DNA from: a virus
DNA: 39,630 nt
Virus record (IMG/VR): IMGVR_UViG_3300032893_000150
Coordinates: 1 to 39,630 of that record
Direction: 5' to 3' (one strand)
Both the position numbers and the translations under genes were made by a program. A model generated the notes under the pieces. That model saw nothing but the letters and a program-made list of their open reading frames with translations. It was not told the origin of the DNA and made no database searches. Positions 112 through 39,630 of this stretch are shown here, piece by piece; position 1 is the first letter of the stretch; the number at the start of each line of letters is the position of its first letter.

Positions 112-285
112 CCGCGGATCTCCGGCGGTTTCCGGGGCGCTGAAAAGCTTCCGCCAATTCATTTCCCACAACACCTGATCGCGCAAATACCAGGTGTCAC
201 CGCCGGCGATTTCTTGGTCATACAGGGACTGCTCATAGTCTAGCAGTGCTTCGTCGGACCAATCCGCGTAGGGGCGATCGCTCAT
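97..285 (-). CDS. Small hypothetical protein downstream of integrase
   Basis: A 62-residue acidic protein, last gene of the leftward operon. Its ATG overlaps the integrase stop by four bases (ATGA), suggesting translational coupling, and its stop lies within the attP repeat about 40 bp from the tRNA core. The sequence is rich in Trp, Tyr and Asp/Glu (it begins MSDRPYADWSDEALLDYE) with no transmembrane segment and no domain I recognise. Its position next to int suggests a role in, or regulation with, integration, but that is inference from context only. Confidence 0.6.
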   Translation of the reverse strand: MSDRPYADWSDEALLDYEQSLYDQEIAGGDTWYLRDQVLWEMNWRKLFSAPETAGDPRKPPE

Positions 286-1547
286 ACCGCGATCCCCTCG
301 CGCGCCATCCAGGCGACCAGCTTCTCGATGCCGCTGTCGGCGAGCGCGGCCTGGTCGCCGAGATAATGCTTGATGATGGTCTGCGCCGATTGCAGCGAGT
401 GGCCGGAGATCGCGCAGATCTCCGGCAAGGTGTTGTCGGCGCGCGCCAGCCAGGTCACGCCGGTGTCGCGCAGATCCTGATCGCGCTTGCCGGCGAGCGA
501 CGGCATGTCTTTGGCGGCATGCGCGCGGACTTCGCCGAACACATGGCGATAGGTGTCCTGCTTGTAGGTGTCGCCGGTCGTCTCATCGACCACGATGGTT
601 TCCGGCCGGGTGCCGAGTTTCAGCTTGATCGCGGCGACGCGCGCCCGCGCCGCTTCGAGGCGCGCGGCGAGCTGCGGCGTTTCTTTGATCGGCACAAGCT
701 TGCGGTTGGTTTTGCTCTGGCGGAATTGCCGGCGGCCGTCGACCAGGCCTTCGTCTTTGAGGAACACGCGATCGCGCTGGCGCTGGCATGTGAACAGGCC
801 GAGCATCACGGCGTCGCCGATCGACGGCCGGCCGATCGCGTCGGCCGCGGCGATCAGCGCGCGGATCTCGGCATCGGAATAGATCACGATGCGGCCTTCC
901 GGCCGCGGCAGCTCGATCTGATGCCGCGGATTGGCGCCGAGCCGCCAGCGCCGATCGAGGCCGCCCCACGTGTAGGCGGCCGAGAACGCGGCGATCGCCG
1001 CCTGCGCCATGTGATGCCCGCGAACGCGCTTCAAATAAGTGAACAGATCCTTGAGCACGATCTTGTCGACGGCGGCGACGCGCGCGGTTGCAAATTCTTC
1101 CTTCGGCCGCGCCGGCGTATCGAGGCCGAGCGTTTCGGCGGCGCGTTCCTTCTCGATGCGCTTCTTGCGCTGCGCTCGGCTCTCCGGCTTGAATTGCAGC
1201 GCGATCGCGGCCTTGGCATAGGAGCTGATTGTGTCGGGCGAAAGCTGCGTGTCGGGATCCTTGTCGGCTCTCAACGCTTCGAGCCAATCCTCTAACAGAT
1301 CCTCGACCGTGCCGCCGGCGGAACGCAGCGCCGGCGCCGGCTTGAATTTCTTGCCGCTCTCGCGCGTTTGTTTGATCGCTGTCAGCATGCGCTCGCTCTC
1401 GGCGCGCGCTTCATCGAGCGTGAACCATCGGCCATCGGCGTGTTTGAGATCGCGACCCTTGAAGCCGATCTTCTGCTCGCGCGATGACGGCTGAAAGCGC
1501 GGCCGGCCGTCACGCCAAATGACGTAGGGAAGCTTGATGTCTGCCAT
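282..1547 (-). CDS. int: Tyrosine recombinase, phage integrase
   Basis: 421 residues from the ATG at 1547, which is preceded by GAGGA; an in-frame GTG three codons upstream is less likely. The N-terminal part has the usual arm-binding and core-binding features (basic, helical). The C-terminal catalytic domain shows the family's late motifs: LRDTG near residue 363, a GHS box (ISGHSLQSAQ) and the nucleophile Tyr in IKHYLGD. The first catalytic Arg is probably in the CQRQRDRV stretch. It would catalyse recombination between attP (14-58) and the host tRNA-Lys gene. The length (about 420) is normal for a heterobivalent phage integrase. It lies in a leftward operon with an Xis-like gene. Confidence 0.95.
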   Translation of the reverse strand: MADIKLPYVIWRDGRPRFQPSSREQKIGFKGRDLKHADGRWFTLDEARAESERMLTAIKQTRESGKKFKPAPALRSAGGTVEDLLEDWLEALRADKDPDTQLSPDTISSYAKAAIALQFKPESRAQRKKRIEKERAAETLGLDTPARPKEEFATARVAAVDKIVLKDLFTYLKRVRGHHMAQAAIAAFSAAYTWGGLDRRWRLGANPRHQIELPRPEGRIVIYSDAEIRALIAAADAIGRPSIGDAVMLGLFTCQRQRDRVFLKDEGLVDGRRQFRQSKTNRKLVPIKETPQLAARLEAARARVAAIKLKLGTRPETIVVDETTGDTYKQDTYRHVFGEVRAHAAKDMPSLAGKRDQDLRDTGVTWLARADNTLPEICAISGHSLQSAQTIIKHYLGDQAALADSGIEKLVAWMAREGIAV

Positions 1548-1580
1548 TGTCCTCACCCCGTTCCGAAGGGCGGCGAAAGT

Positions 1581-5063: not shown

Positions 5064-5731
5064 TGGCCGCCGACGATCCGAAAAACCGGCCCTATTTGTC
5101 AACCGTGGGCGGCCCCGAAAATAGGGCTGATTTGTCAATCGTCGCGGCGCTCAAAAATAGGGCCGATTTGTCAATCGTCGATGGCCCTGAAAATAGGGCT
5201 GATTTGTCAATCGACAAGATTGATGCACGCCGCAAGAAGCTGCGTCTGTCGATCGCGCGGTTGCTCAACGAAGCTTGCGTTCATCGCCAGACCTGGGCCG
5301 ATGCCAAAGCGCGGCCCGATCGCGTGCGCAAGGCGACGCTGGAACGCCTCGATCGCGCGCTCGATCGGCTGGACAATGGCGAGCGCGCGCCAATCCAGCC
5401 CGCGGCGATCGCCAAGCTTTATCTATTCGCCGCTTGCATGGTTGCGGCGCGCTGCGGCGCCGACGTCGCCGCCATTCGCGCGATGGCGCTCGATTTCGGC
5501 AATGAGAAGCCGAACGAGGAAGCCTGGCTGTTCGGCGCCCGCGTGCGCCGCGTCGCGATGTATCTCGTTGCCTGCGAATGGGAGCTAGGCAAGGCCGCGC
5601 TCGCCAACGCCATCGGCTGCTCGCGCCAAAATCTGTTCCAGGCGGTGAAGTCGATCGAGGAATTGCGCGAAGCCGAGCCCGCGCTCGATGCGCTGATCGT
5701 GCAGCTCGCGGCCTGCGGAAAGGTGGCGTGA
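5063..5731 (+). CDS. Replication-initiator-like protein with DnaA domain IV-like HTH
   Basis: 222 residues from ATG 5063 (GGAGGG upstream; start overlaps the previous stop). Residues 8-54 are four tandem 12-residue repeats (NRADLSI core) encoded by the iteron DNA described separately. Residues 55-120 are helical and basic. The C-terminal part (about 150-215) has the look of DnaA domain IV: a helix ARVRRVAMYLVACEW, then an HTH ALANAIGCSRQNLFQAVKSIEE. It lies just upstream of primase and helicase genes. Lambda O is the analogy: an initiator whose own gene contains the iterons it binds. The initiator role is inference. Confidence 0.65.
   Translation: MAADDPKNRPYLSTVGGPENRADLSIVAALKNRADLSIVDGPENRADLSIDKIDARRKKLRLSIARLLNEACVHRQTWADAKARPDRVRKATLERLDRALDRLDNGERAPIQPAAIAKLYLFAACMVAARCGADVAAIRAMALDFGNEKPNEEAWLFGARVRRVAMYLVACEWELGKAALANAIGCSRQNLFQAVKSIEELREAEPALDALIVQLAACGKVA
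5081..5213. repeat. Four iterons with exact 36-bp period: candidate replication origin
   Basis: 25-bp units start at 5081 (diverged), 5117, 5153 and 5189. The shared part is A-TAGGGCTGATTTGTCAATCG with only one or two changes among the last three. GCCC and GGGC flanks around GAAAATA give each unit a short hairpin potential. The units use codons rare in this genome (AGG, TTG, TCA) unchanged, which favours selection on DNA and not only on the encoded peptide. The placement inside an initiator gene resembles lambda ori. Confidence 0.7.
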
Positions 5732-6135
5732 TGGCGAACGGTCACGGTCTGCCGCTCATTCAAAATCTGATCCGCGAACGCGCCTATCAGCAGGAGCTGG
5801 TCGAGCTGATGTGCTCGCTGACGCAGGAGGACGCCAACGGCCGCGTCACGGCCGCCAAGACGGCGCCGGCGGCGATCGACGCCATCATTGCGTTTCGCCG
5901 CAAGCACGGCCTGGCCATCCTCGATTGCGATCCGGCGTTTTATTTGATCGCGATGCACCGCGCCATCATCCGCCATCCGAAGCTGAAAGAGCGTGCCGAC
6001 AAGATGCCGCCGGACGAAGACGCGATGCGCGCGCGCGGCGTCATCAATTGGTCCGAGCATTGGCTGATCCGCAACGGCTACGGAACCGATGTCGATACCG
6101 AGTTCAATCCGAAGCCGGTCAAGGTGACGCAATGA
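5731..6135 (+). CDS. Hypothetical early protein
   Basis: 134 residues, ATG overlapping the previous stop (TGATG). Helical and soluble, with a conserved-looking segment AIIAFRRKHGLAILDCDPAFYLIAMHRAIIRHP. I do not recognise the fold. Located between the initiator-like gene and the primase, so probably part of the replication module. Confidence 0.6.
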   Translation: MANGHGLPLIQNLIRERAYQQELVELMCSLTQEDANGRVTAAKTAPAAIDAIIAFRRKHGLAILDCDPAFYLIAMHRAIIRHPKLKERADKMPPDEDAMRARGVINWSEHWLIRNGYGTDVDTEFNPKPVKVTQ

Positions 6136-6449
6136 CGCCAGAACAGCGAATTGCAGAACTTGAAGCCGAAGTCGCAGTGCTGCGGGAAATCCTCAATACG
6201 CCCGTAGTGGAACCGTTCATGTTGGCGGCCGTGACCGAAGCTAAGCATCAACGCGCGCGATGGGGCGATGAGCAGGACGCCAAGAAAGATGCGTTCGATT
6301 GGTTTTGGACGCTCGGTTATCTCGGGGGGAAGGCCGCTCGATCCGCGAATGACGGCGATATTGCGAAAGCGCTGCACCATACCGTGACGGCCGCAGCGCT
6401 GCTGGCGAATTGGCATCGTCATTTAATTTTTCGGCGTGACAAAAAATGA
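6132..6449 (+). CDS. Hypothetical protein with coiled coil and MazG-like helical segment
   Basis: 105 residues. Residues 1-22 are a short coiled coil (MTPEQRIAELEAEVAVLREI). The rest resembles a common phage family with a pattern E-A-x-H-Q-R-x-x-W-G-D-E-Q-D then W..LGYLGGKA and a final helix ALHHTVTAAALLANWHRHL; such proteins are often placed near all-alpha (MazG-like) nucleotide pyrophosphatases, though the metal-binding E-E-x-x-D motif is not evident here. Function therefore unassigned. Overlaps both neighbours by four bases. Confidence 0.6.
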   Translation: MTPEQRIAELEAEVAVLREILNTPVVEPFMLAAVTEAKHQRARWGDEQDAKKDAFDWFWTLGYLGGKAARSANDGDIAKALHHTVTAAALLANWHRHLIFRRDKK

Positions 6450-7549
6450 ACCGCCGGCGCCCGACGCTCGAAGAAATCAAGGCCGCGGCGAATGCGCGGC
6501 CCTATGACGTGCTGCATGCGCTCGGCATCAATGAGCGTCCACGATCGGGCGGCTATATCTCGATGTGCAATCCGGTCGAGAAAGACCGCCATCCAAGCTT
6601 CACCATCTGGCCCGATCGCGGCGGCATTCTCACGTTCAAGGATCATCGCGGCAACGCGCAAGGCGATATCATCGACCTGGTCGCCTACATCAAGGGCTGG
6701 TCTGACGGCGCGCGCAAAGGCCGCGCCGAAGCGCTGCGCTTTCTGTCCGATCTGCTCGGCCTCGAACGCCTCACGCCGGAGCAACGCCAGGCCGATCAGT
6801 CGCGCTCGATCGCGCGCGCGCAGCGCGAGCAAAAGCGCGCCGGCGAGGATCTGGCGACCAAACAGGCGCGGGCCTATGAGCTATTTATTCATGCCTCGGC
6901 GCAACAGGCCGGCGGCGTCGCCGATCTCTATCTGAAAGCCAGGGGCATTGATCTGGAAAGCCTGCCGCGCGGGGCGCGCGGCGGCATCCGCTGGCCTCAT
7001 TCAATCCGGCAAATCCATTCCTGCCCGCATCTGGAAAGCGGGCGCGAATTTCCGTGCATGATCGCAAGCTGCACGGATACGGGCACGCGCGATATCCTCG
7101 CCGTGCATCGAACCTGGCTGCAGCTCGGCCAAGGCTCGATCGTGAAAGCTAACGTGACGCCGAACCGGAAAGTGTGGCCGGATTTCCGCGGCCTGGTGAT
7201 CCCGCTCTGGCGCGGCGAAAGCGGCCTCTCGATCAAAGAAGCGATTGCGGCGGGCTTGCGTGAAACGCTGGTGCTCGCCGAAGGCATTGAGACGGCGCTG
7301 AGCGCGGCGATCGCGGCGCCGGCGTTCCGCACCTGGGCTTTTATCTCGCTGTCCAATCTGCAGAACGTCGTGCTGCCGGAGTGCATCGACAGCGTCATGC
7401 TCCATCGCGAAAACGATTTCGGCAACCGCGCCGCGGAGCTGGCGTTCGCGCGCGGCAAGGCGGCGCTGGAAAAACAAGGCCGGCCGGTCGCCGAGATAGC
7501 GGCGCTAGGCGGCAAGGATCTCAACGATACGCTAAGGGGGGCGGCATGA
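6446..7549 (+). CDS. DNA primase with CHC2-like and Toprim domains
   Basis: 367 residues. Residues 15-105 follow the DnaG/gp4-type zinc-binding region in outline (YISMCNPVEKDRHPSFTIW, then FKDHRGNAQGDIIDLVAYIKG), but only one Cys of the zinc set remains. Residues 275-365 are a Toprim domain (LVLAEGIETALSA with catalytic Glu279, then SLSNLQNVVLP). The usual D-x-D is reduced to HREND, with one Asp (324), so activity may differ from DnaG. It would synthesise primers for phage replication together with the helicase gene downstream. Confidence 0.8.
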   Translation: MNRRRPTLEEIKAAANARPYDVLHALGINERPRSGGYISMCNPVEKDRHPSFTIWPDRGGILTFKDHRGNAQGDIIDLVAYIKGWSDGARKGRAEALRFLSDLLGLERLTPEQRQADQSRSIARAQREQKRAGEDLATKQARAYELFIHASAQQAGGVADLYLKARGIDLESLPRGARGGIRWPHSIRQIHSCPHLESGREFPCMIASCTDTGTRDILAVHRTWLQLGQGSIVKANVTPNRKVWPDFRGLVIPLWRGESGLSIKEAIAAGLRETLVLAEGIETALSAAIAAPAFRTWAFISLSNLQNVVLPECIDSVMLHRENDFGNRAAELAFARGKAALEKQGRPVAEIAALGGKDLNDTLRGAA

Positions 7550-8382: not shown

Positions 8383-10278
8383 ATGGCTGAAAAAAGAGAA
8401 ACGGCTGACGGCAAGGCGGCGGTCGCGGCTTCGATCAACGATGCGCGGCGCAAGCTGGCCAGGCGCAAAAAGTACGATGATCCGCCGCCGCATCAGGCGC
8501 GCGATGACGCGCTGCCGGGCAAGTGGACGAAGAACGATCTCGGCCTGCCGGTCGAAAGCAAATGCCCGGTCGAGCCGCTCGGCCGCGAGGGCGCGTTCTA
8601 TCACTTGATGGACAGCGCCGGACAATTCCGATCGTTCACCGCGTCCGATTTTTCTCATTCCGGCATCCAAGACCTGTTCGCGCGCGCGCCGAATTGGCCG
8701 AAATGGTGCGCGCCGCGCTTCGGCCGCGCGCCGGCGGCGAAGGAAGGCGAGCCGCCGCCGCCGCCGCCGATCAAGAGTTTTCAAGACGACGATATCCGCG
8801 AAATGCTGATGAAGGCGTGCAGCGACGTCGGGCAATTCTCGGCCGACAACAAGCTGCGCGGGCGCGGCGCCTGGCGGCTGCGCGACGGCGGCCTGATCTA
8901 TCACGCCGGCGAAGAACTGTGGCGCTGCGAGCTGCGCGCCGGCGTGCCGTTCTGGCGCTGCGAACCTACCGGCATGATCGAAAACCAGCTCTATCCGCTG
9001 TTGCCCGAAATTCCCGCGCCCTGGGATCAGCCGATGAGCGCGGCCGATAATCCCGCCGGCGCGCTGCTCGAAACATTCCGCAAATGGAATTTCGAGAAGC
9101 CCGACGTCGATCCGGTCTTGCTGCTCGGCTGGCTCGGGACGGCGTTCCTTGGCGGCGCGCTCGATTGGCGATCGGCGATCTTGCTGGTGGGCGACAAAGG
9201 CACCGGCAAATCGACGCTGCAGGATGGCTTGAAAGCGCTGTTCGGCGATGCGCTGTTTCACTCGGCCGACACCACGGCCGCCGGCATCTATCAGAAGATG
9301 GCGCATGACGCGCGGCCGGTCGCGGTCGATGAGCTGGAAGCCGGCGCCGACAATCGCAAGGTCAATGCCGTGATCCAGCTCATGCGCGCGGCATCATCGG
9401 GCGCGCTCGCCTCGCGCGGCGGCGCCGATCATCACGGCGTCGAATTCCAGATGCGTTCGGCGTTCCTGTTCTCGGCGATCAACAATCCGCTGCAGTCATC
9501 GCAAGACCTGTCGCGCGTCGCGATCTTGCGGCTGCGCCCGCTGGACAAAGACCAGGCGATGCCGCCGCCGATCGACGCCGACACCGCGGGGCGCAAAATC
9601 CTGGCGCGCTTGATGGCGCAATGGCCGCGCTTCCAAGAGATTTACGAAGTCTATGCCGGCGCGCTGTCGAGTGGCGGCCATGACGCGCGCGGCCAGAAAA
9701 CCTACGGCACGCTGCTCGCCTGCGCCGATCTCATGCTCGGCCCGGAGCTGGCGGCGCAGCTCGATGTACCATTGACGGAAGACCCGGCCTATTGGGCCGA
9801 CAAGCTTGCCGCCGACAAGCTGCCGGAGGTCGAAGACGCGATGCAGAACTGGCGCGCGTGCTTGACCTGGCTGCTGACGGCGCAAGTGCAGCAATGGCGC
9901 AACGGCGCGCGCACGACAGTCGGCAAATTGCTGTCCGATCTCGAAGCGCAGAAGGACGATTTCGATTATCACAAGGCGAAGGATGAGCTGGCGCTTACCG
10001 GGCTGGGCCTCTTGGTGCCCGGCGACGTCGCCGATATGAAACTCGGCTATGTGCTGGCCGTGCCGAACAGCTCGCCGCTGGTCGCCAAGCTTTTCGAGGG
10101 CACGCAATGGGGCGGATCGCCCGGCGCCGGCGGCCCCTGGAAAGATGCGCTGCGCCAGGCGCCGGCGAATGTCGCGATCAGCGATAAGAAATTGAACCGC
10201 ATCACGATTGGCGGCGTGCAAACGCGCTGCACCCTGATCGTGCTCAAAAATTTCCACGAAGCGCCGGAGCGCGGATGA
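8383..10278 (+). CDS. P-loop replicative helicase (D5/VirE-like primase-helicase)
   Basis: 631 residues from ATG 8383; an in-frame TTG at 8374 is less likely. The N-terminal region is basic and Pro-rich (a run of eight Pro around residue 126). The ATPase core begins near residue 240: Walker A GDKGTGKST at 270-278, Walker B PVAVDELEAG about 40 residues on, and a sensor-like FLFSAINNPL with following Arg residues. This matches phage superfamily 3/D5-type helicases seen beside Toprim primases. The overall length is normal. Its stop overlaps the methylase start by four bases. Confidence 0.8.
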   Translation: MAEKRETADGKAAVAASINDARRKLARRKKYDDPPPHQARDDALPGKWTKNDLGLPVESKCPVEPLGREGAFYHLMDSAGQFRSFTASDFSHSGIQDLFARAPNWPKWCAPRFGRAPAAKEGEPPPPPPIKSFQDDDIREMLMKACSDVGQFSADNKLRGRGAWRLRDGGLIYHAGEELWRCELRAGVPFWRCEPTGMIENQLYPLLPEIPAPWDQPMSAADNPAGALLETFRKWNFEKPDVDPVLLLGWLGTAFLGGALDWRSAILLVGDKGTGKSTLQDGLKALFGDALFHSADTTAAGIYQKMAHDARPVAVDELEAGADNRKVNAVIQLMRAASSGALASRGGADHHGVEFQMRSAFLFSAINNPLQSSQDLSRVAILRLRPLDKDQAMPPPIDADTAGRKILARLMAQWPRFQEIYEVYAGALSSGGHDARGQKTYGTLLACADLMLGPELAAQLDVPLTEDPAYWADKLAADKLPEVEDAMQNWRACLTWLLTAQVQQWRNGARTTVGKLLSDLEAQKDDFDYHKAKDELALTGLGLLVPGDVADMKLGYVLAVPNSSPLVAKLFEGTQWGGSPGAGGPWKDALRQAPANVAISDKKLNRITIGGVQTRCTLIVLKNFHEAPERG

Positions 10279-11114
10279 ACATCGAAGTTCGCAGGCCGGT
10301 GATGCGCTACCACGGCGGCAAGTTTCGGCTTGCGCCGCGGATCATTGAGCATTTCCCGATGCACCGGATTTACGTCGAGCCGTTCGGCGGCGCGGGCTCC
10401 GTCTTGATGCGCAAGGAACGTTCTTTCGCCGAAGTCTATAACGACCTGGACGGCGAAGTGGTCAACGTGTTTCGCGTGCTGCGCGATCCGGAGAAGGGCG
10501 AGCGGCTGCGCCAATTGCTCGAGCTGACGCCATGGGCGCGCGAAGAATTTAAACTCACCTACGAGCCTGCGGACGATCCTGTGGAGCAAGCCAGGCGCAC
10601 GATCGCGCGCGGCTTCATGGCGCACGGCTCGACGTCGGTGCGGCTCAATAGGACGGGCTTTCGCGCGAAGAATTATCGCCGCAATCAGACCGGCGCCGGC
10701 GATTGGAAAAGCTATCCCGATGCGGTCCCGGCCTTCGTCGAACGGCTGCAGGGCGTCACGATCGAGTGCCGGCCGGCGCTCGAAATCATCACGCAACAGG
10801 ACAGCCCGGAAACCCTGTTTTTTTGCGATCCGCCTTACGTGCATGCGACGCGCTCGGCGCTGGCGCACAAGGGCGGCCCGAACGATTGCTGCTATCGCCA
10901 CGAATTGAGCGACGACGATCACCGCGCGCTCTTGCTAAAGCTTCGCGACGTCGCCGGCATGGTGATCCTGTGTGGCTACGAGAACGAAATCTATGCCGAC
11001 CTGGTCGGCGATTGGGATCTGCGCAAATTGGATGCGACCGCTGACGGCGGCATCAGCCGCACGGAATGCCTCTGGCTCAATCCGCCGGCCGCGCGCGCCG
11101 GCCGCCTGCTCTAG
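10275..11114 (+). CDS. D12-class DNA adenine N6-methyltransferase
   Basis: 279 residues. Conserved motifs are in place: RYHGGK at 11-16, VEPFGGAGS (motif I, AdoMet binding) at 34-42, YNDLDGEVVNVFRVLR, and the catalytic DPPY at 185-188 (FFCDPPYVHA). This is the Dam/M.DpnII-type family, usually methylating adenine in GATC. GATC is common in this genome while GANTC is almost missing, so GATC is the likelier target. No cognate restriction enzyme is adjacent, so it is an orphan enzyme for self-protection or regulation. Last gene of the early operon. Confidence 0.9.
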   Translation: MNIEVRRPVMRYHGGKFRLAPRIIEHFPMHRIYVEPFGGAGSVLMRKERSFAEVYNDLDGEVVNVFRVLRDPEKGERLRQLLELTPWAREEFKLTYEPADDPVEQARRTIARGFMAHGSTSVRLNRTGFRAKNYRRNQTGAGDWKSYPDAVPAFVERLQGVTIECRPALEIITQQDSPETLFFCDPPYVHATRSALAHKGGPNDCCYRHELSDDDHRALLLKLRDVAGMVILCGYENEIYADLVGDWDLRKLDATADGGISRTECLWLNPPAARAGRLL

Positions 11115-11333: not shown

Positions 11334-11575
11334 AGACACCGATCAAGCGTGGTGTCTTCGGCGGTGTCTAAGCCGCAAAGCGCTGATTTCTCGGCACAAT
11401 TCGGATGAAAAGACACGCTAGACACCTAGACACCGAAGAAGCCTTCGCGCGCGCGCGCGCGCGCGCGTCACGAGAGCATGAGGTGTCTAGGTGTCTGAGG
11501 TGTCTAAAATCAGAAAGAGGCGCGGCCGATCAATCGCTTGGCGTTAGACACCTTGCCAGACACCGCCAAGACACC
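11334..11575. repeat. Cluster of AGACACC / GGTGTCT heptamers
   Basis: Eleven exact copies plus one with a single mismatch (11411-11417) in 242 bp. Minus orientation (AGACACC): 11334, 11420, 11428, 11546, 11558, 11569. Plus orientation (GGTGTCT): 11351, 11363, 11482, 11490, 11499. They come in runs of same-orientation triplets spaced 8-12 bp, alternating in direction. About five copies would be expected by chance in the whole genome. A multimeric DNA-binding protein, such as TerS at a pac site or a late activator, is the likely reader. Confidence 0.8.
11446..11467. repeat. 22-bp uninterrupted CG alternation
   Basis: Eleven CG dinucleotides in a row, between inverted groups of the heptamer cluster. 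Alternating purine-pyrimidine DNA of this kind can adopt Z-form under negative supercoiling. It is also prone to length variation. Confidence 0.85.
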
Positions 11576-20071: not shown

Positions 20072-20140
20072 CCGCGTAATGCGTCGGCGGCGCCGCGCTC
20101 GCGCGGGCCGCCTGTGCCTCTCAATCAGGAGCAAAGCCAA

Positions 20141-20728
20141 ATGCGCAACTTGAAGTCAAAATTGCTGATCGCGGTGGCCGCGGCTGCGCTGTTCGCAGCG
20201 CCGGCGCTCGCCGGCGTCGTCAACACCTTCGGCCAGGGCGACGTCAATCCGAAATCGACGGCGACCAACCCGGTCGCGGTCGAGGAAGTCTTCGCGTCGG
20301 GTCATGTCAAGCAGATCATTTCGACGATCGCTGTCAATTCGACCGATAGCGCGACGTCGATCTATCACATCGGCTTTGTGCCGACGAATGCGGTGCTCGA
20401 TCCGTCGTCGCTGGTCTATGGGTCGGGCATCACCGGCCTGACGTCGATGAGCTGCGGCTTCGGGGCGAACCCGCAGCCGGCCAACTCGCAGATCGGCACC
20501 TGGTCCGCGCTGCCGAATGCGCTGGTCAACGCACAGGATTGGCACACTGCGGCATCGTTCTCGCTGATGTCGGCGGTATCGGTCGCGAACTATGGGCAGA
20601 AGGTCTATCAGATGCTTGGCCTTTCGCTCGATCCCGGCGGCGTGGTCGAAGTCATATGCACCGTGAACACTGGCCCCTCGGCCAATGGCACGCTGCAGTT
20701 CTTTCTCAAGGGCAACAACTTCAACTAA
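20141..20728 (+). CDS. Secretion-signal-bearing protein beside the capsid gene
   Basis: 195 residues from ATG 20141 (AGGAG upstream). The first 24 residues form a textbook Sec signal: basic MRNLKSK, a hydrophobic Ala/Leu core, cleavage after ALA. The mature part is a Ser/Thr/Asn-rich beta-type domain with VNSTDSATSIYHIGFVP, and Cys residues in MSCGFG and EVICTVN. Related domains in virion modules would be head decoration proteins, but a signal peptide is unexpected for a cytoplasmically assembled capsid. A secreted or surface function is the alternative. Confidence 0.65.
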   Translation: MRNLKSKLLIAVAAAALFAAPALAGVVNTFGQGDVNPKSTATNPVAVEEVFASGHVKQIISTIAVNSTDSATSIYHIGFVPTNAVLDPSSLVYGSGITGLTSMSCGFGANPQPANSQIGTWSALPNALVNAQDWHTAASFSLMSAVSVANYGQKVYQMLGLSLDPGGVVEVICTVNTGPSANGTLQFFLKGNNFN

Positions 20729-31981: not shown

Positions 31982-32920
31982 ATGCCCGTTTTCACCGTGC
32001 CATCGGAAGCCTGCGAGGCGCAGTTCATTTGGACCGGCGTGCAAGGCTCGTTTCCGTGCGGCTTCCCGGCGCTCGAAGCGAGCGATCTTGTCGTCACCTA
32101 TTCGTCCGGCCAGAACGCGGCGTTCCAGGGCCAGATCAACGGCAATGTGCTGACGGTTTCGGCGATGACGTCGGGCGCGCTCGCGGTCGGCTCGGAGATC
32201 TCCGATGGCAGCGTGCATGTGGCCGTGGGCACCGAAATCACCGCGCCCGGAAGCGGCGCCGGCGGCGCCGGAACCTATGTCGTCCAGCCGGCGCAAACCG
32301 TCGCCGCCGAAGCGATGACGGCGACGCCGCAGGCGCAGACCTTGCAGCTCGGCGTGCATTATACGGTCGCGCTCGATGCGCTGTCCGGCAACGCGACCGT
32401 GACGCCGATCGCCATGCCCGACAACGGCCCCGGCACCGTGACCATCACGCGCGCGACATCGGCGGTGCAGGGCCTACAGCTCAATGATCTCGACAGCTAC
32501 GCCGCCGATCCGCTGACGGCCGCCTTTGATCGCGCGATGATGTGCATCGCTGAATTGAAGCGGCGGGCATCGGTGCTCGAAAGCGTAGCCGGCATCAGCA
32601 GCGGGGCCGTAGTTATCAATGCGCTTGGCGGCCGGCCGCAACGCTCGATCACGGCTGCAGGTAATTTGCCGGTGACAGCGGGCGATAGCATCTTGAACAT
32701 CAATGCCGCGGCCGATCTGACGCCGGTTGTGCCGGCCGCTTCGACGCGCAGCGGCGCCCCGTTGACCTTCAAGAATTTGCCAGGCTCGCATCTGCAGACG
32801 CTCGAGCGCGCCAGCACCGACACGTTCGACGGTCAGACGACGTATCAGCTCGCGGCCGGCGCCGAAGTCACACTGACGCCCTATAACGACGGAGTGAACA
32901 GCGGCTATGCGATCGACTAA
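31982..32920 (+). CDS. Tail fibre N-terminal/adaptor protein (T7 gp17 N-domain-like)
   Basis: 312 residues. The beginning (FTVPSEACEAQFIWTGVQGSFPCGFPALEASDLVV) matches the tail-attachment domain of T7-type fibres, with the F-P-F/C-G-F and DLVV pattern, followed by a Gly/Ala-rich spacer and a beta-rich C-terminus (SGAPLTFKNLPGSHLQTL). It would join the tail to the fibre encoded next. It has no ribosome site but has a promoter-like motif immediately upstream. It overlaps the next gene by 14 bases. Confidence 0.75.
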   Translation: MPVFTVPSEACEAQFIWTGVQGSFPCGFPALEASDLVVTYSSGQNAAFQGQINGNVLTVSAMTSGALAVGSEISDGSVHVAVGTEITAPGSGAGGAGTYVVQPAQTVAAEAMTATPQAQTLQLGVHYTVALDALSGNATVTPIAMPDNGPGTVTITRATSAVQGLQLNDLDSYAADPLTAAFDRAMMCIAELKRRASVLESVAGISSGAVVINALGGRPQRSITAAGNLPVTAGDSILNINAAADLTPVVPAASTRSGAPLTFKNLPGSHLQTLERASTDTFDGQTTYQLAAGAEVTLTPYNDGVNSGYAID

Positions 32921-35051
32921 GGCATTTCTCGCGGCGCTGATTTTCTGGACCGGCTGTCTTGTCTCGGCCGCTCTGGCGCAAAATCCCGGCTTTGTCGGCC
33001 CCGGCCAAGTCGGCGCCAATTACGGCGCCGGCTATCGCGGCAACAACTGGCTGTTTCAATCGCCATCATGTCCCAGCTCCACGATCGTTTCGGCTTATCA
33101 GCTCATGGCGCTGACGTCCGGAGCGCCGAGCAGCGTTCCGATCGCAATTTGGGATGGAACACAATGTGTCACAGTCGGGTCGCTGAACGCGAGCGCGCAT
33201 TCCTTTAGCGCAATACCTGGCGGCTCGAACACGCAACTTGAATATAACAATTCCGGAATTTTCGGCGGCGTCAGTGGCTTCACGACGGACGGCACCAATT
33301 TGACCGGCGGCGCCGGCGCACTGTTGAAATTAGCGGCCTCTGCGAGCGGCGGCGCGACATTCAATATTCAGCAAGGCGCGGCGCCGACCAGCCCGAACAA
33401 CGGCGATATCTGGGCGACTTCGACCGGCCTATTCGTCCGCATTGCCGGATCGACTGTCGGGCCTCTATCTGCGGGCGGCAGCGGCGGCTCGCCGGGCGGC
33501 AGTAACACGCAATTACAATTCAACAATAGCGGCGTTTTTGCTGGCACCTCGACGTTAACCTATTCATCGTCGACGCTATTCGACACCGCTAATGCCTTCG
33601 GCTCGCTGCAGATCCAAGACGCTTCGGCGAGCCAGGACAAGATGCTGCTCGGCGTTGCCTCGGCGGGCGCCTGCAGTTTCCTTGGCACGTCAGCTTGCAG
33701 CCAGATCTCCTTCACGCCGAATAGCGTCGGGTCGTTCAAGAATGTCCTCGATATCCGCGCCAATCAAAATAGCGGGCTCGTTTTAGAAAACTTCGGTTCG
33801 GTCGAGGCGCCGAAGCTTTTACTGTCTGGTGAAGACACGGTCCAGATCCCTGATCTTGAAGGCCAGCACGCCGGCGGCGCCTTCGCGGCCTATGCCCGAG
33901 CCGGCAGCGGTCAAATCGCATTCAATTTTATCAATCTCGGCGTGACGACGGGCAGCGGCACGCTCGGCACCTCTGACGGAAGCACGGTAGTTCAGATCGA
34001 GGGTCTGTCGAACGGCGGCAGCAGCCAGAACATGGTCGCGTTCTATCAGGCGCGCGGCACTGTTTGGAACGGGACGCTCACCGCCCTGCAGGCTGGCGAT
34101 CGCATGGGCGAGGTCGCTGGTTTCGCGAGCTATGGCGCGAGCTTCCTGGCGACCGAATGCCCGTCGATGAATTTCTACGCCGATCAGACCGTCACAAGTA
34201 GCGCCAATGGCTCCAATATCATCTTTCGCAATTGCCTGACCGGAACTGCCAGCGAAGTGGTTGTCGGCGGCTTCTTTGCCAATGGCGGCTTCGTGGTCGG
34301 CGCTGCTGCGACCAGCGCCAATGGTTACACGGGCAGTTCCGGTTCGATCACGTTTGTTGATGGCGGCTCCGCAACTTCGACGCCGTCCGGCACGTCGGCT
34401 CTCACCTCGACATCAGGGCGCCCGCAATGGTGGAGCGCGACTGCCGGCAACGGCGCGAACATTGCTTATGAAACCGGGACTTTCACGGCGGCTCACGCGA
34501 TATGCGTCGGCGGCAGCGTCGGCTCGATCGTCGATTGCGGCAGCAGCGGCGGGACCCTTACCAGCGTCACCCTTCACCCTGGAACACCGAGCGCCTTCAC
34601 CAGCGACTGCGTCATCACGAGCAGCGGCACATGCAACCTTCCGGAATATGTGCAGGGCACTTGGACGCCCACCCTCACCACCACTGGCACCGTCGGCACA
34701 CCAGCTTATAATACTCAGTCCGGCAGTTACGAGCAGATCGGCCGACAAATTACGGCGAGGTTTTTTATTGTCATCTCCGGATGGACGGGCAGCCCCACCG
34801 GAAATATCGAGGTTGGACTTCCCGTCACTTCGGCTAACGTCGCGAACGATTACGGCATCTGCTATTACACCGCCTATACCGTGAACGGACTTGCCACCAA
34901 TAATTTCGGCATCGGCGGCTATGTCGCGCCGAATACCGGGGTCGCGACCGTGGTTTCAAATGCCACTGCAAACACTCCTGGCGTTACCGCTGCCCAATTC
35001 GGCTCTGCGAACAACAACGCCATCATGGGCTTTTGCACCTATCACGTCTAA
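32907..35051 (+). CDS. Tail fibre / receptor-binding protein with N-terminal signal sequence
   Basis: 714 residues. The first 24 are a signal-peptide-like segment (MRSTK, hydrophobic core, AALAQN). The body has two copies of a fibre repeat with GGSNTQL and NNSG (about residues 105-125 and 197-215), Gly/Ser/Thr-rich beta-solenoid character, and a C-terminal module beginning TWTPTLTTTG that is common at phage fibre tips. Codon use is more A/T-rich than upstream, typical of horizontally exchanged fibre genes. The signal sequence is anomalous for a virion fibre. Confidence 0.75.
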   Translation: MRSTKAFLAALIFWTGCLVSAALAQNPGFVGPGQVGANYGAGYRGNNWLFQSPSCPSSTIVSAYQLMALTSGAPSSVPIAIWDGTQCVTVGSLNASAHSFSAIPGGSNTQLEYNNSGIFGGVSGFTTDGTNLTGGAGALLKLAASASGGATFNIQQGAAPTSPNNGDIWATSTGLFVRIAGSTVGPLSAGGSGGSPGGSNTQLQFNNSGVFAGTSTLTYSSSTLFDTANAFGSLQIQDASASQDKMLLGVASAGACSFLGTSACSQISFTPNSVGSFKNVLDIRANQNSGLVLENFGSVEAPKLLLSGEDTVQIPDLEGQHAGGAFAAYARAGSGQIAFNFINLGVTTGSGTLGTSDGSTVVQIEGLSNGGSSQNMVAFYQARGTVWNGTLTALQAGDRMGEVAGFASYGASFLATECPSMNFYADQTVTSSANGSNIIFRNCLTGTASEVVVGGFFANGGFVVGAAATSANGYTGSSGSITFVDGGSATSTPSGTSALTSTSGRPQWWSATAGNGANIAYETGTFTAAHAICVGGSVGSIVDCGSSGGTLTSVTLHPGTPSAFTSDCVITSSGTCNLPEYVQGTWTPTLTTTGTVGTPAYNTQSGSYEQIGRQITARFFIVISGWTGSPTGNIEVGLPVTSANVANDYGICYYTAYTVNGLATNNFGIGGYVAPNTGVATVVSNATANTPGVTAAQFGSANNNAIMGFCTYHV

Positions 35052-35064
35052 ACGGGAGATTAAT

Positions 35065-35301
35065 ATGCGGACGATCTTGCTCATCGTGTTCTCGCTGATT
35101 TCCACCGGCGCTTTCGCACAAAGCCCTAGCGATCCTGCGTTCCTCAACAATGCCCTCCAGGTGCTGCAACAGCAGCGCAATCGCGCGCTGGATGAGGCTG
35201 CGGTTTCGCAGGCGCAATATGTCCAGGCGACCAAGGAAATCGAGGTACTCAAAAAACAAATAGCGGATCTCCACAAGCCTGCAGATGCTCCAAAAAAATA
35301 A
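35065..35301 (+). CDS. Secreted coiled-coil protein
   Basis: 78 residues from ATG 35065 with GGGAGATTAAT upstream. Residues 1-18 form a signal peptide (cleavage after AFA), followed by a coiled coil NNALQVLQQQRNRALDEAAV and IEVLKKQIADL. No lipobox Cys, so not a standard o-spanin. It could be a periplasmic fibre chaperone or part of a spanin-like pair with the last gene of the window. Confidence 0.65.
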   Translation: MRTILLIVFSLISTGAFAQSPSDPAFLNNALQVLQQQRNRALDEAAVSQAQYVQATKEIEVLKKQIADLHKPADAPKK

Positions 35302-35634: not shown

Positions 35635-36114
35635 ATGAAGATGTTCGCCAAAAAGAGCCTCCTTAGCACTGTCCGGATCCAGGCGGCCATTGCTGCCGCC
35701 TGGATCTTCTTCTTTCCGGTCGCGGCCTTCGCGCAGGCGACATTCCTCGCCGATCTTGACAGCAACCTGGCCGGCGCCTCGACGCCGATCGCGATCTCGA
35801 CCGCGACCACGACGCAGCTCATTGCCGCGCCCGCCGGCACCGGGCCGGGCGGCGCGACGCAACAGATCTTCGTCACGCATTACGAAGTCGAGGCCGGCGG
35901 CGCCGGCAATATCCAATTCGTCTACGGCACCGGCACCAATTGCGGCACCGGGCAAAATCCGGTCACCGGCACCTATGCGCTCACGGCGCAGGCCCGCGCC
36001 GAAGGCGGCGCCGGCTTCGGCCCGGTTTGGGTGATCCCGCCCGGCAACGCGCTCTGCGCCATCACCAGCGCGGCCGTGGGCATGAACGGCAGCTTGTCCT
36101 ACCGGATCAAGTGA
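35635..36114 (+). CDS. Secreted beta-domain protein
   Basis: 159 residues from ATG 35635. Signal peptide to about residue 34 (hydrophobic WIFFFPVAAFA, cleavage before QAT). The mature part has IQFVYGTGTNCGTGQNPVTG and ends PPGNALCAITSAAV, with two Cys likely to form a disulfide. Similar domains occur in phage structural proteins without signals. Its own promoter-like motif immediately upstream suggests independent, perhaps lysogenic, expression. Confidence 0.65.
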   Translation: MKMFAKKSLLSTVRIQAAIAAAWIFFFPVAAFAQATFLADLDSNLAGASTPIAISTATTTQLIAAPAGTGPGGATQQIFVTHYEVEAGGAGNIQFVYGTGTNCGTGQNPVTGTYALTAQARAEGGAGFGPVWVIPPGNALCAITSAAVGMNGSLSYRIK

Positions 36115-36120
36115 GGGGCC

Positions 36121-36297
36121 ATGAAATATCTCGCAGCCGCATTGTTGCTGTTCGGAGCCGCCCTCATCGCCAGCGTGCCGGCGGCCAGGGCGGCAAATGC
36201 CGGCCAGACCAATGCGGCGTCCCACGCCGTGAAAGAGCGCTGTTTCGACCGCTCCAATTCGCGGCGCTATCACCAGCAATATTGCAGCGGCCTGTAG
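36121..36297 (+). CDS. 58-residue secreted peptide with two cysteines
   Basis: Begins six bases after the previous stop (GAGGGGCC upstream). A signal peptide of about 24 residues (MKYLAAALLLF..., cleavage after ARA) is followed by a 34-residue mature peptide with two Cys (KERCFDRSNSRRYHQQYCSG). Small secreted peptides of this kind may act in the periplasm. No family recognised. Confidence 0.6.
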   Translation: MKYLAAALLLFGAALIASVPAARAANAGQTNAASHAVKERCFDRSNSRRYHQQYCSGL

Positions 36298-36379: not shown

Positions 36380-36907
36380 ATGAAATCACTTCGCCGCATT
36401 GCTATCGGCTTTACCGCCGTCGCCATGCTCGCCGCCGCACTGTCGGTGTCGGGCCTCATCACGTCCAAGAAGGCCCACGCGCAGGCCGATGTCCTGTCCG
36501 GCATCCTGCAACGCCTCTCGCGCATCGGCGGCTATCCGCCGAACTCGACGCCGGAGATCCAATCGTCGGGCAACGTCGCCAACGCGACCGCTTCCGCGGC
36601 ACTGCCGGCGACGGCCGGCGTTACCAATTTCATCTACGGCTTCGACGTCTACGGCACCGGCGCGACCGCGGCCAGCGTCGTCAATTGCACCGTGGCCGGC
36701 ACGGCTTCGACCGGCACGCCGACCTTTGCGCAGGCGGTGCCGGCCGGCGCCACGACAGCCATCACGCCGACCCTCGTTCGCTTTCCGGAGCCGCTGCCGG
36801 CTTCGGCCGTGAACACGGCGATCACCGTGTCTTGCCCGGCCTTCGGTTCGGGCAACACCAACGCCTCGGTGAACGTCTACGGGTTCCAATCGACCATCGC
36901 GCCGTAA
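36380..36907 (+). CDS. Secreted Ala/Thr-rich protein
   Basis: 175 residues. Signal peptide of about 35 residues ending AHA|QAD. The mature part is beta-rich, Gly/Thr/Ala-rich (TNFIYGFDVYGTGATAASVVNC; ITVSCPAFGSG) with two Cys. Similar in style to the proteins at 20141 and 35635, and perhaps of the same broad family, but I cannot align them with confidence. It is followed by a terminator-like hairpin. Confidence 0.65.
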   Translation: MKSLRRIAIGFTAVAMLAAALSVSGLITSKKAHAQADVLSGILQRLSRIGGYPPNSTPEIQSSGNVANATASAALPATAGVTNFIYGFDVYGTGATAASVVNCTVAGTASTGTPTFAQAVPAGATTAITPTLVRFPEPLPASAVNTAITVSCPAFGSGNTNASVNVYGFQSTIAP

Positions 36908-36929
36908 CCGAGCCTCCCTGTGTAACCTT

Positions 36930-36956
36930 GCCGGGCGCTGCGTCCTCGCGCCCGGC
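36930..36956 (+). terminator. Rho-independent-type hairpin after secreted-protein block
   Basis: Perfect 9-bp GC-rich arms GCCGGGCGC and GCGCCCGGC with a 9-base loop, followed by CGCTTTCC (a weak T-tract). It separates the secreted block from the lysis genes. Confidence 0.6.
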
Positions 36957-36976
36957 CGCTTTCCAGGCCGCCGAAC

Positions 36977-38182
36977 ATGGACGTCAGGACGCTCACCGAA
37001 CTCAATGCCTCGCGCTGGAAGGTCGCGAAGATCGCGCCCGGCCGCGAGCTGGAAGTCGAGCGCGTCGCCGCGGCGATCGCCGCGCCCCATGCGCGCCAGA
37101 TCTACGAGGAAATTTCGCAGCGCGTGTGGAACACGCCAAAGCGTTGGTGGTTTGTCGGCATCGTTCATCATCGCGAGGCGTCGGGCGATTTCTCCAAGAG
37201 CATCGCGCAAGGCGATCCTTGGAACAAAAAATCGGTCAACGTCCCGGTCGGGCTTGGCCCCTTTGCCAGCTTCATCGAGGCCGCGGTTTACACGCTCACG
37301 CGCGTTCCGGTTGGCGGAAAATATATTCCCGCGCACTGGACCGATTGGAGCATCCCCGGCGTGCTCACGCTGTGGATCTTCTACAATGGCACCGGCTATG
37401 AGCAGTACCATCACGAGCCGAGCCCTTACGATTACGGCGCCACGACGATCGAGCAGCGCGGCAAATATGTCGCCGATCATCTGTTCGATGCGAGCACCTG
37501 GGACAAGCAGATCGGTTGCGCGGCGCTGCTGATTGCGCTGATCGCGATCGAGCCGTCGATCGTCGAGGCGCCGGCCGCCAATCAAAACGATACACCCCAG
37601 CCGAAGCCTGAACTGCCGGCGCCGCCGCCTGTCCCGGCGGCGCCGGCGGCCGAGACAAAGACGGTTGTGGTGGTCGATCTCTACGGCCTCGGCGGCTATG
37701 CAACATCGCCGGGCATGAAGACGCTGGCGGAAGAAATCGCGGCGCTCGGCAAGAATTTCATCGTGCTCGGCCCCTATCTGCAGGACGATTGGATCGCCGC
37801 CGGCCAGGCGTTGATCGCCGAGCTGAAAAAGATCGCCGGCCCGGTCGAGATCGTTCTTGTCGGCTACAGCCTCGGCGCCAACAACATCGTGCAGCTCGCC
37901 GCGATGCTCAATGAGCAGATCGCCGACCTCATCGGCGTGCAGGCGTCGGTGTGGGGCGCCGGTTGCTCGCCGCTCTCGCCGGTGATCGCGATCTCGCACA
38001 ACGTCCATGCGGCGCTGTCGATCTACAATCCGGAATTTTTTGCAACCGGCGGCCTCGGCTATGCGCGCTACGGCGCCCCGGCGCAGCTCATGACCACGGC
38101 CGATCTGCATCCCGCCGTCGACAACGACGAAGGCCTGCACGGCGTCATCCTCAATCGGCTGAAAAAGCTCGCGGCTTCGTAA
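36977..38182 (+). CDS. Endolysin: lysozyme domain fused to alpha/beta-hydrolase domain
   Basis: 401 residues, no signal peptide, so export needs the holin. Residues 30-180 are a phage lysozyme-like domain with FVGIVHHREASGDF (probable catalytic Glu67), a GDP near 79 and YNGTGYEQYHHEPSPYDYG plus GKYVADHLFD. A Pro/Ala linker (196-226) leads to a second domain, 227-401, with the hydrolase elbow GYSLGAN (Ser298) following strand EIVLV, and late Asp/His candidates (Asp383/Asp384, His378, His388). The second domain resembles alpha/beta-hydrolases (esterases/lipases), unusual in an endolysin of a Gram-negative host; it may attack outer-membrane lipids or another ester. Confidence 0.8.
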   Translation: MDVRTLTELNASRWKVAKIAPGRELEVERVAAAIAAPHARQIYEEISQRVWNTPKRWWFVGIVHHREASGDFSKSIAQGDPWNKKSVNVPVGLGPFASFIEAAVYTLTRVPVGGKYIPAHWTDWSIPGVLTLWIFYNGTGYEQYHHEPSPYDYGATTIEQRGKYVADHLFDASTWDKQIGCAALLIALIAIEPSIVEAPAANQNDTPQPKPELPAPPPVPAAPAAETKTVVVVDLYGLGGYATSPGMKTLAEEIAALGKNFIVLGPYLQDDWIAAGQALIAELKKIAGPVEIVLVGYSLGANNIVQLAAMLNEQIADLIGVQASVWGAGCSPLSPVIAISHNVHAALSIYNPEFFATGGLGYARYGAPAQLMTTADLHPAVDNDEGLHGVILNRLKKLAAS

Positions 38183-38207
38183 GGCGTACCAACAAAGGAG
38201 CGGAACG

Positions 38208-39137
38208 ATGGACGGCAATATTCTGAGTTTGCTTTTGATGTTTGTGAACACGTCGAAGGTGGCGGGCTGGACCCGCGCCGGCGTCGGCGCCTTGTTCGCG
38301 ATCGCGCTGGCGAAATGGTCGTGGCTCGGCCAGTACGTCGATCCTTCGACGCAGAATTACATCGCGCTTGCCGCGTCGGGTATCGCGGTCGGGATCTGGT
38401 CGCATCTGGCGAAGTGGCTGAGCGCGCAAGCCGCGGCGCAATCGCCGGCGATCGCGGGCTACGGCGCGGACGGCCAGGTGCGCAAGCTGCCGCTCGCCAT
38501 CCTGGCGATCGGCGTCTCGGCGGCGCTGCTCGCGCTCCTGGCGGCGCCGGCCTTCGCTGCCGATGTGCTGCCGACCAAAGCGCCGCCGGCGGCGCCGAGC
38601 TGCACGCTGCAGCAATGCTCCGGCTTCTATGCCGGCATCAACATCGGCGAAAGCGGCTCGAACTTTTCCGGCGGCACCTCGGCCAATCAGTTCGCGCTCG
38701 GCGGCAATGCCGGTTATCAGTTCTGGAACGGCCAATGGTTCATCGCGGCAGAGTTCGATGCGCTCTATGGCCTGACGCAGAACGGCACAGTGCCGGGCGG
38801 CGGCAACTCAGCGCTGTGGGGCATCGGCGGCCTTGCTAAGATCGGCTATTCGCTCTCAAGCGTGTTTGGTGCCGCGGCCAATGCGAGCGCGCAGCCGGTG
38901 CTGCCGTCGAGCCTGCAGAATGCGCTGATCGCGCCTTATGCCATCCTCGGCATTTGGGATCGGCCGTGGGGCGCCGGCTTCGTCTCCGGTGCCGGTGTCG
39001 AGGCGCTGCTCGCCAACAACTGGACCTTCCACGTCGATTATCTGCACGTGAATTACAACAATGCGGCGGTCAACGTGAACGTCAATCAGCAGACCGAGGA
39101 TCTGATCCTCGCCGGCATCGACTATCACTTCAAGTAA
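38208..39137 (+). CDS. Holin fused in frame to an outer-membrane beta-barrel protein
   Basis: 309 residues with a strong ribosome site (AAAGGAGCGG). Residues 1-90 look like a small holin (Pam3-gp28 style): two hydrophobic spans about 21-39 and 50-68, the second ending GIWSHLAKWL. From residue 91 there is an internal signal peptide (VRKLPLAIL..., cleavage AFA|ADV near 117) and a barrel domain with FYAGINIG, ALGGNAGYQFWNGQWFIAAEFD, and a final VDYLHVNYNN / LAGIDYHF, as in Omp25/Omp31-type porins of Hyphomicrobiales. A GTG at 38478 could start the barrel separately. Confidence 0.75.
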   Translation: MDGNILSLLLMFVNTSKVAGWTRAGVGALFAIALAKWSWLGQYVDPSTQNYIALAASGIAVGIWSHLAKWLSAQAAAQSPAIAGYGADGQVRKLPLAILAIGVSAALLALLAAPAFAADVLPTKAPPAAPSCTLQQCSGFYAGINIGESGSNFSGGTSANQFALGGNAGYQFWNGQWFIAAEFDALYGLTQNGTVPGGGNSALWGIGGLAKIGYSLSSVFGAAANASAQPVLPSSLQNALIAPYAILGIWDRPWGAGFVSGAGVEALLANNWTFHVDYLHVNYNNAAVNVNVNQQTEDLILAGIDYHFK

Positions 39138-39159
39138 ACGAGAACGGAGAAGCGCCGTC

Positions 39160-39447
39160 ATGGAAGCAACAGCCTGGATTACCCTTGGCGGCGCCGCCTT
39201 CACCATCGCGGCCACGATCATCGGCGCCGCGGTCAAGCTGACCTGGTGGCTTAGCGATCAGTTTGCCGATCTGAAAAAGACGCAAGCCAATATGCTCGAA
39301 GAGCACGAAGCCAAAGACCAGGAGCGGCACACCGACAATACCGGCCGCTTGAGCACGATGGAGGGCCGCATCGAAACACTCGGCGCCCTTATCCGCAATC
39401 GTGCGCCGCGCCGAAAACCCGCCGCAAGACGCTCCCGCAAGACGTGA
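39160..39447 (+). CDS. Membrane-anchored coiled-coil lysis accessory
   Basis: 95 residues, with GGAGAAG before ATG 39160. One transmembrane span near the N-terminus (residues 6-30) is followed by a coiled coil with FADLKKTQANMLEEHEAKDQ and MEGRIETLGALI, then a basic tail. The layout resembles i-spanins or XhlA-like holin accessories. It is the last gene of the late operon and converges on attP and the integrase operon. Confidence 0.6.
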   Translation: MEATAWITLGGAAFTIAATIIGAAVKLTWWLSDQFADLKKTQANMLEEHEAKDQERHTDNTGRLSTMEGRIETLGALIRNRAPRRKPAARRSRKT

Positions 39448-39489
39448 GACACCGTGAGACACTTTCGGCGTGAGACATGTCTCACGCCG
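39444..39489. repeat. GTGAGACAC repeats and 24-bp palindrome next to attP
   Basis: GTGAGACAC at 39444 and 39454, then a perfect palindrome (39466-39489) with half-site CGGCGTGAGACA. The opposite arm has GTGTCTCAT at 92-100. They could be integrase arm-type sites, or the palindrome may be a bidirectional terminator between the convergent late and int operons; the two options are not exclusive. Confidence 0.65.
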
Positions 39490-39519
39490 TCTTACGTTCG
39501 CAAATGTTCTCGCGCTATC

Positions 39520-39630
39520 TGCTTGAAATCTTTGGTGGGCGCACAAGGACTCGAACCTTGGACCCGCTGATTAAGAGTTAACGCCGTCAGCAGCTCTATC
39601 AATGGGTTACGTGTCTCATTCCGGCGGTTT
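39520..39630. repeat. 111-bp exact terminal direct repeat, right copy
   Basis: Identical to 1-111; includes the second representation of the attP core (39533-39577). See the left copy for interpretation. Confidence 0.93.

Follow-up and report, generated by a model that had tools for sequence, protein, structure and literature searches.

The lysis region of virus record IMGVR_UViG_3300032893_000150 holds a reading frame, P0001 (38208–39137, plus strand, 309 amino acids), in which an N-terminal membrane hairpin, an internal signal peptide and an outer-membrane β-barrel follow one another in a single polypeptide. Judged from its sequence, P0001 is a real, unusual fused frame and a variant of the outer-membrane barrels that phages carry. 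The explanation that we prefer, which as a whole we hold at about an even chance, is that a captured Omp25/31-type gene has been fused to a hairpin, giving a processed protein of two membranes with a role at the cell surface. The fusion is known from a single metagenomic phage and one assembly. Positions refer to the window, that is, the whole stretch of 39,630 bases that was analyzed.

The Phage and Its Likely Host

The virus record of 39,630 bases ends in a 111-bp direct repeat (39520–39630, the same as positions 1–111), and the genome is thus circular as assembled. Inside the repeat, on the minus strand, lies the 3′ half of a tRNA-Lys gene, whose identity was read from the sequence; ARAGORN found no full tRNA at this remnant, and attP is probably located within it. 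The presence of an integrase gene (282–1556, minus strand; phrog_1 integrase, E = 3.4e-13) together with the tRNA-Lys attP makes the virus a temperate phage. Its structural genes, encoding a head-tail connector, capsid and tail proteins, mark it as a podovirus of the epsilon15/phiV10 type. Since the closest prophages located via the virion protein sit in Hyphomicrobiales genomes (53% identity of this protein in L091, from Hyphomicrobiales, and 47% in L092, from Pleomorphomonas), a Rhizobiales bacterium is the likely host.

The genome also shows several features outside the lysis region. Tandem repeats spaced by 36 bp and carrying GATTTGTCAATCG occupy positions 5081–5213 and are possibly iterons or operator sites. 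At 11411–11505, AGACAC/GTGTCT units form a 24-nt inverted repeat around a loop of 47 nt, and similar GAGACAC/GTGTCTC words are found at about 39440–39490, near attP. A D12-class adenine DNA methyltransferase (PF02086) is encoded at 10275–11114, without an obvious restriction partner, and PADLOC gave no match to a defence family.

A Single Reading Frame across the Junction

P0001 reads without interruption from ATG 38208, which is preceded by a strong Shine-Dalgarno sequence, AAAGGAG (38194–38200, plus strand; duplex of −8.5 kcal/mol). Its parts are arranged as a weak hairpin of two helices and a linker (residues 1–90), a signal peptide (91–117), a Pro/Ala-rich stretch (118–138) and a barrel (139–308). 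An earlier note on this DNA had placed a holin-like part, a signal peptide and a barrel in one frame, and had singled out a frameshift or stop between the halves as the point to check. To score the frames, a codon model was trained with the genes of the window except P0001. In every 30-codon segment of P0001 the log-odds were above zero in frame 0 and below zero in the two other frames, and the junction (residues 71–110) scored +13.6 and +17.7 in frame 0. As the coding bias keeps to one frame over the junction, no frameshift divides the two parts; a frameshift or an overlap artefact between the halves is rejected by this scoring, and neither a non-coding stretch nor a separating stop is visible in the assembled sequence. 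The single frame described in the earlier note thus stands.

The N-Terminal Hairpin

Residues 1–90 (38208–38477, plus strand) comprise a weak two-helix membrane hairpin followed by an Ala/Gln-rich linker, and are an orphan sequence. They match nothing in Pfam, PHROGs or NCBIfam, and searched alone they gave chance-level matches in phages and in 397 genomes of the order to which the L091 genome belongs. AlphaFold2 predicts the two helices, with low confidence, at residues 22–40 and 46–77. They are weakly hydrophobic, reaching hydropathy values of 1.47 and 1.64 in windows of 17 residues and staying under the threshold applied in windows of 19 residues, and K36 lies within them. The charges of K17, R23, H66, K69, R92 and K93 are on one side, and D45 is in the loop. 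This pattern would fit an N-in/C-in hairpin with both ends cytoplasmic, a topology in which the signal peptide at residues 91–117 would be correctly oriented.

Compared by eye, the N-terminus resembles the Pam3 gp28 holin (PF23987, Phage_holin_10), sharing a short hairpin, an Asp/Thr loop (Asp-Pro-Ser-Thr) and a second helix that ends in W-S (...IWS), and one member of this family, in L037, comes from a phage related to that of the window. The resemblance differs from membership, however, in lacking a statistical match: the Pfam search gave no match to the family at E ≤ 1, and in a test with 23 family members shuffled sequence scored equally. With regard to the general criteria for holins, the position by the endolysin fits, and the helices are weakly hydrophobic. 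What stood of the "holin-like" segment of 90 residues proposed earlier is therefore a weak two-helix hairpin beside an endolysin gene, from which the term is a guess. The label "holin" itself did not hold, as the segment matches neither PF23987 nor any other family, and the single-TM protein encoded at 39160 is an equally good candidate for the holin.

The Internal Signal Peptide and the GTG Codon at 38478

The second part of P0001 is an internal signal peptide (V91–A117; 38478–38558, plus strand) with a predicted cleavage site at APAFA|AD, which aligns with the signal peptides of the homologues. It was evaluated with our own scoring rather than SignalP, on the basis of a charged n-region, a hydrophobic core and an AxA site, applied to every ATG, GTG or TTG that lies in frame within a gene of the window (n = 383). 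A single internal start passes, and it is GTG 38478 (38478–38480, plus strand; V91), which shows that the internal signal peptide goes beyond what this genome yields by chance. The canonical signal peptide recognized in the earlier reading is thus borne out.

The same reading had suggested that the GTG could express the barrel alone, and this is plausible. Pairing with the anti-Shine-Dalgarno sequence upstream of it is moderate (−5.7 kcal/mol, among the top 6.6% of internal starts), and the own start codons of the Rhizobiales homologues examined align near residues 91–97. Since those starts fall at the junction, GTG 38478 probably marks the start of the captured gene, and as such would be the ancestral start of the barrel gene as well as a possible internal start today.

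These observations bear equally on a simpler view, in which P0001 amounts to two genes, one for a small membrane protein and one for a barrel translated from GTG 38478, and the fusion is a recent stop loss or a sequencing or assembly error with no function of its own. Y85 (TAC) and Q90 (CAG) are each one substitution away from a stop codon, and a single lost stop, real or a sequencing error, would be enough to create the fusion. The alignment of homologue starts at the junction, the moderate ribosome pairing before the GTG and the fact that the relatives found are unfused point the same way. On the other hand, the linker is open with a strong coding bias and the two parts adjoin without a gap. 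Weighing both sides, we give this two-gene explanation roughly one chance in four of being right.

The Outer-Membrane Barrel

The third part of P0001 is predicted to be an eight-stranded β-barrel of the OmpA/NspA/OmpX type (residues 139–308; 38622–39131, plus strand) that ends in ...YHFK. The region matches PF13505 (E = 1.6e-10; 41.8 bits against a cut-off of 28.7, residues 104–291). AlphaFold2, run with 12 phage and viral-contig relatives, places eight strands in residues 139–308 with a pLDDT of about 90 in most of them and near 75 in some, the overall mean being 63. In Foldseek, the best matches among solved folds are NspA, OmpA, Ail, OmpX and OmpW, and several barrels of uncultured phages (BFVD, Caudovirales) are retrieved among viral proteins. 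By our own test, a Sec signal peptide immediately precedes the barrel, in an internal rather than an N-terminal position. A classical porin of 16–18 strands was considered and rejected, because the model has eight strands and P0001 has no match to a porin family. The wording "porin" used earlier was hence mistaken, while the Omp25/31-like barrel itself is well founded.

P0001 matches outer-membrane proteins in 77 of the 397 genomes (E ≤ 1e-5), mostly from residues 90–105 onward. The nearest relatives of the barrel are Rhizobiales Omp25/31-like proteins with 30–37% identity, which share with P0001 a signal peptide ending in AxA|AD, a subsequent Pro/Ala-rich stretch, GFYAG, a small barrel and a C-terminal YHF. 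They differ in being cellular single genes that lack an N-terminal membrane hairpin. As the homologues start near residues 91–97, the phage seems to carry a complete cellular-type gene, start codon included. The capture of a host gene, one of the possibilities raised in the earlier note, is well supported by these cellular homologues and by their starts at the junction. The proposed phylogeny of the barrel against host proteins was built with 36 barrels and did not place the window sequence, which sits on a branch of length 3.71 and belongs to no supported group.

Homology to common Rhizobiales outer-membrane proteins could also mean that the barrel is an ordinary host-type protein for transport or envelope stability, kept as fitness cargo without a phage-specific role. 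Its high divergence (branch of 3.71) and its fusion to a gene of the phage lysis region speak against this, and we regard the cargo explanation as improbable, at about one chance in ten.

The Neighboring Lysis Genes

Flanked by lysis genes, the gene for P0001 is oriented in the late direction, and no promoter-like site of its own was found before it. Upstream, positions 36977–38182 (plus strand) encode an endolysin-type protein with an N-terminal lysozyme-like and a C-terminal α/β-hydrolase-like domain. Residues 1–207, to which the matches of its relatives are confined, are 39–50% identical to endolysin-type proteins of other phages, and the C-terminal part carries the motif GYSLG and a match to Abhydrolase_6 that is under the cut-off (E = 0.0036). 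This layout recalls LysA and LysB in one chain. Downstream, a 95-residue protein (39160–39447, plus strand) combines a single TM segment near its N-terminus with a charged tail that probably forms a coiled coil. It matches phrog_736 (E = 0.0054) and, more weakly, the Rz-like spanin phrog_7686 (E = 0.055), and is a candidate holin or i-spanin. A simple scan of 36801–39630 on both strands revealed no ORF with the lipobox of an Rz1-like lipoprotein, so that the outer-membrane lipoprotein characteristic of two-component and unimolecular spanins was not found in this region. A scan with the neighbor at 36380–36907 gave no match.

Six further phage genes begin with Sec-like signal peptides (20138–20728, 32907–35051, about 35057–35301, 35635–36114, 36121–36297 and 36380–36907), that of the gene at about 35057 being judged by eye. 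Five of the six stand in a row upstream of the endolysin, and one of the five is tail-fibre-like. Signal peptides are likewise present on tail-fibre-like proteins of L002 (4131–5678) and L193/L194 (2862–4856). Exported virion-type proteins would be unusual.

Barrels and Lysis Genes in Other Phages

Pattern scans of viral and genome contigs and tblastn searches in phages and plasmids retrieved no fused relative of P0001, and our literature search found no publication on such a hairpin-barrel fusion. Relatives of the phage were located through the virion protein, and none of the loci examined at that stage gave a P0001 homologue; L091 and L092, the closest prophages with a lysis region, both lack the barrel. 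The same three elements do occur, in the same order as in the window, in an unrelated phage known from two assemblies with 99.98% identity (L150/L151). There, a hairpin (ATG 5774, strong Shine-Dalgarno), a barrel (6067–6735) and a TM/coiled-coil protein (6747–7112) are encoded consecutively, but by three separate genes, the hairpin and the barrel with their own ribosome-binding sites.

Other arrangements were chosen by eye among about 20 barrel-bearing contigs. The barrel adjoins a phage lysozyme in L193/L194, lies near a spanin-like gene in L195/L196, and in L182 has endolysin and tail-fibre genes close by, though in divergent orientation. In Agrobacterium phage Rivra, the barrel (gp27) is beside lysis genes on the opposite strand, with a methyltransferase and a glycosyltransferase on the strand of the barrel. 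An Omp25-like barrel gene in L152 (1142–1816) adjoins, in opposite orientation, genes resembling a gene-transfer-agent or phage tail cluster. Lom of phage lambda is a phage-borne outer-membrane barrel. Like Lom, the BFVD Caudovirales proteins and Rivra gp27, P0001 would be a small phage-encoded barrel that probably alters the cell surface; those barrels are, however, free-standing, with an N-terminal signal peptide in the ones that were read, whereas P0001 is fused and located in the lysis region.

The genomic setting invites the alternative that P0001 is a lysis factor, its barrel half being an outer-membrane component that replaces an o-spanin and works with the hairpin and the TM/coiled-coil protein at 39160. 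P0001 sits between the endolysin and TM/coiled-coil genes, the order of hairpin, barrel and TM/coiled-coil protein recurs in the unrelated L150/L151 phage, and the lipobox scan yielded no Rz1-like lipoprotein. Against it, the related prophages L091 and L092 presumably lyse without a barrel, in other phages the barrel gene often diverges from the lysis genes, and cleavage of the signal peptide would free the barrel from the inner membrane. We also know of no spanin that is a β-barrel. This lysis-factor alternative is in our judgment unlikely, with a chance of perhaps one in eight.

A Proposed Route from Gene Capture to the Cell Surface

The preferred explanation, that of a captured and fused barrel gene with a surface role, can be laid out in steps. 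The temperate podovirus of a Rhizobiales-like host would have acquired a complete Omp25/31-type gene, signal peptide included, beside its lysis genes, and a small membrane gene upstream would then have fused in frame to it. Translation would begin at ATG 38208, and residues 1–90 may insert into the inner membrane as a hairpin whose two ends face the cytoplasm. The Arg-Lys pair and the hydrophobic stretch within residues 91–117 would act as an internal signal sequence, leading to export of the barrel by Sec and to cleavage by signal peptidase after APAFA. Folding of the barrel in the outer membrane would fall to BAM; the hairpin would remain in the inner membrane, where it may have holin activity. 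GTG 38478 may add some barrel alone. One gene would thus probably serve two membranes. A bacterial precedent is the fbcH gene of Bradyrhizobium, whose cytochrome b/c1 precursor contains an inner-membrane part and an exported part that signal peptidase splits; it differs in being a respiratory protein rather than a phage gene and in having no outer-membrane barrel.

As to function, the barrel probably serves surface conversion or exclusion, changing the surface of the cell during infection or lysogeny through receptor masking, exclusion or lysogenic conversion. Two observations favor this role: in several other phages the barrel gene stands away from the lysis operon or diverges from it, and lysis genes are also present in related prophages that lack the barrel; a part of the barrel in lysis is less likely. 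The late direction amid lysis genes and the lack of a promoter-like site of its own would fit expression at the time of lysis better than expression in the lysogen. Its position there and the failure to find an Rz1-like lipoprotein speak for this less likely role in lysis.

A different product would result if P0001 stayed uncut. An inner-membrane hairpin linked to an outer-membrane barrel by a joint of about 20 residues could form a double-membrane lysis protein that pulls the membranes together after digestion of the wall. We consider this very improbable; if true, P0001 would be a barrel-based unimolecular spanin and a holin in one, and to our knowledge no such kind has been described so far.

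A single polypeptide that uses an internal signal peptide to serve two membranes is well known in animal viruses and rare in bacteria. If real, P0001 would be a phage gene that serves two membranes in this manner. Beyond this one gene, phages of alphaproteobacteria seem repeatedly to carry Omp25-like barrels next to their lysis genes, a testable lead either for surface exclusion or for a missing outer-membrane lysis factor.
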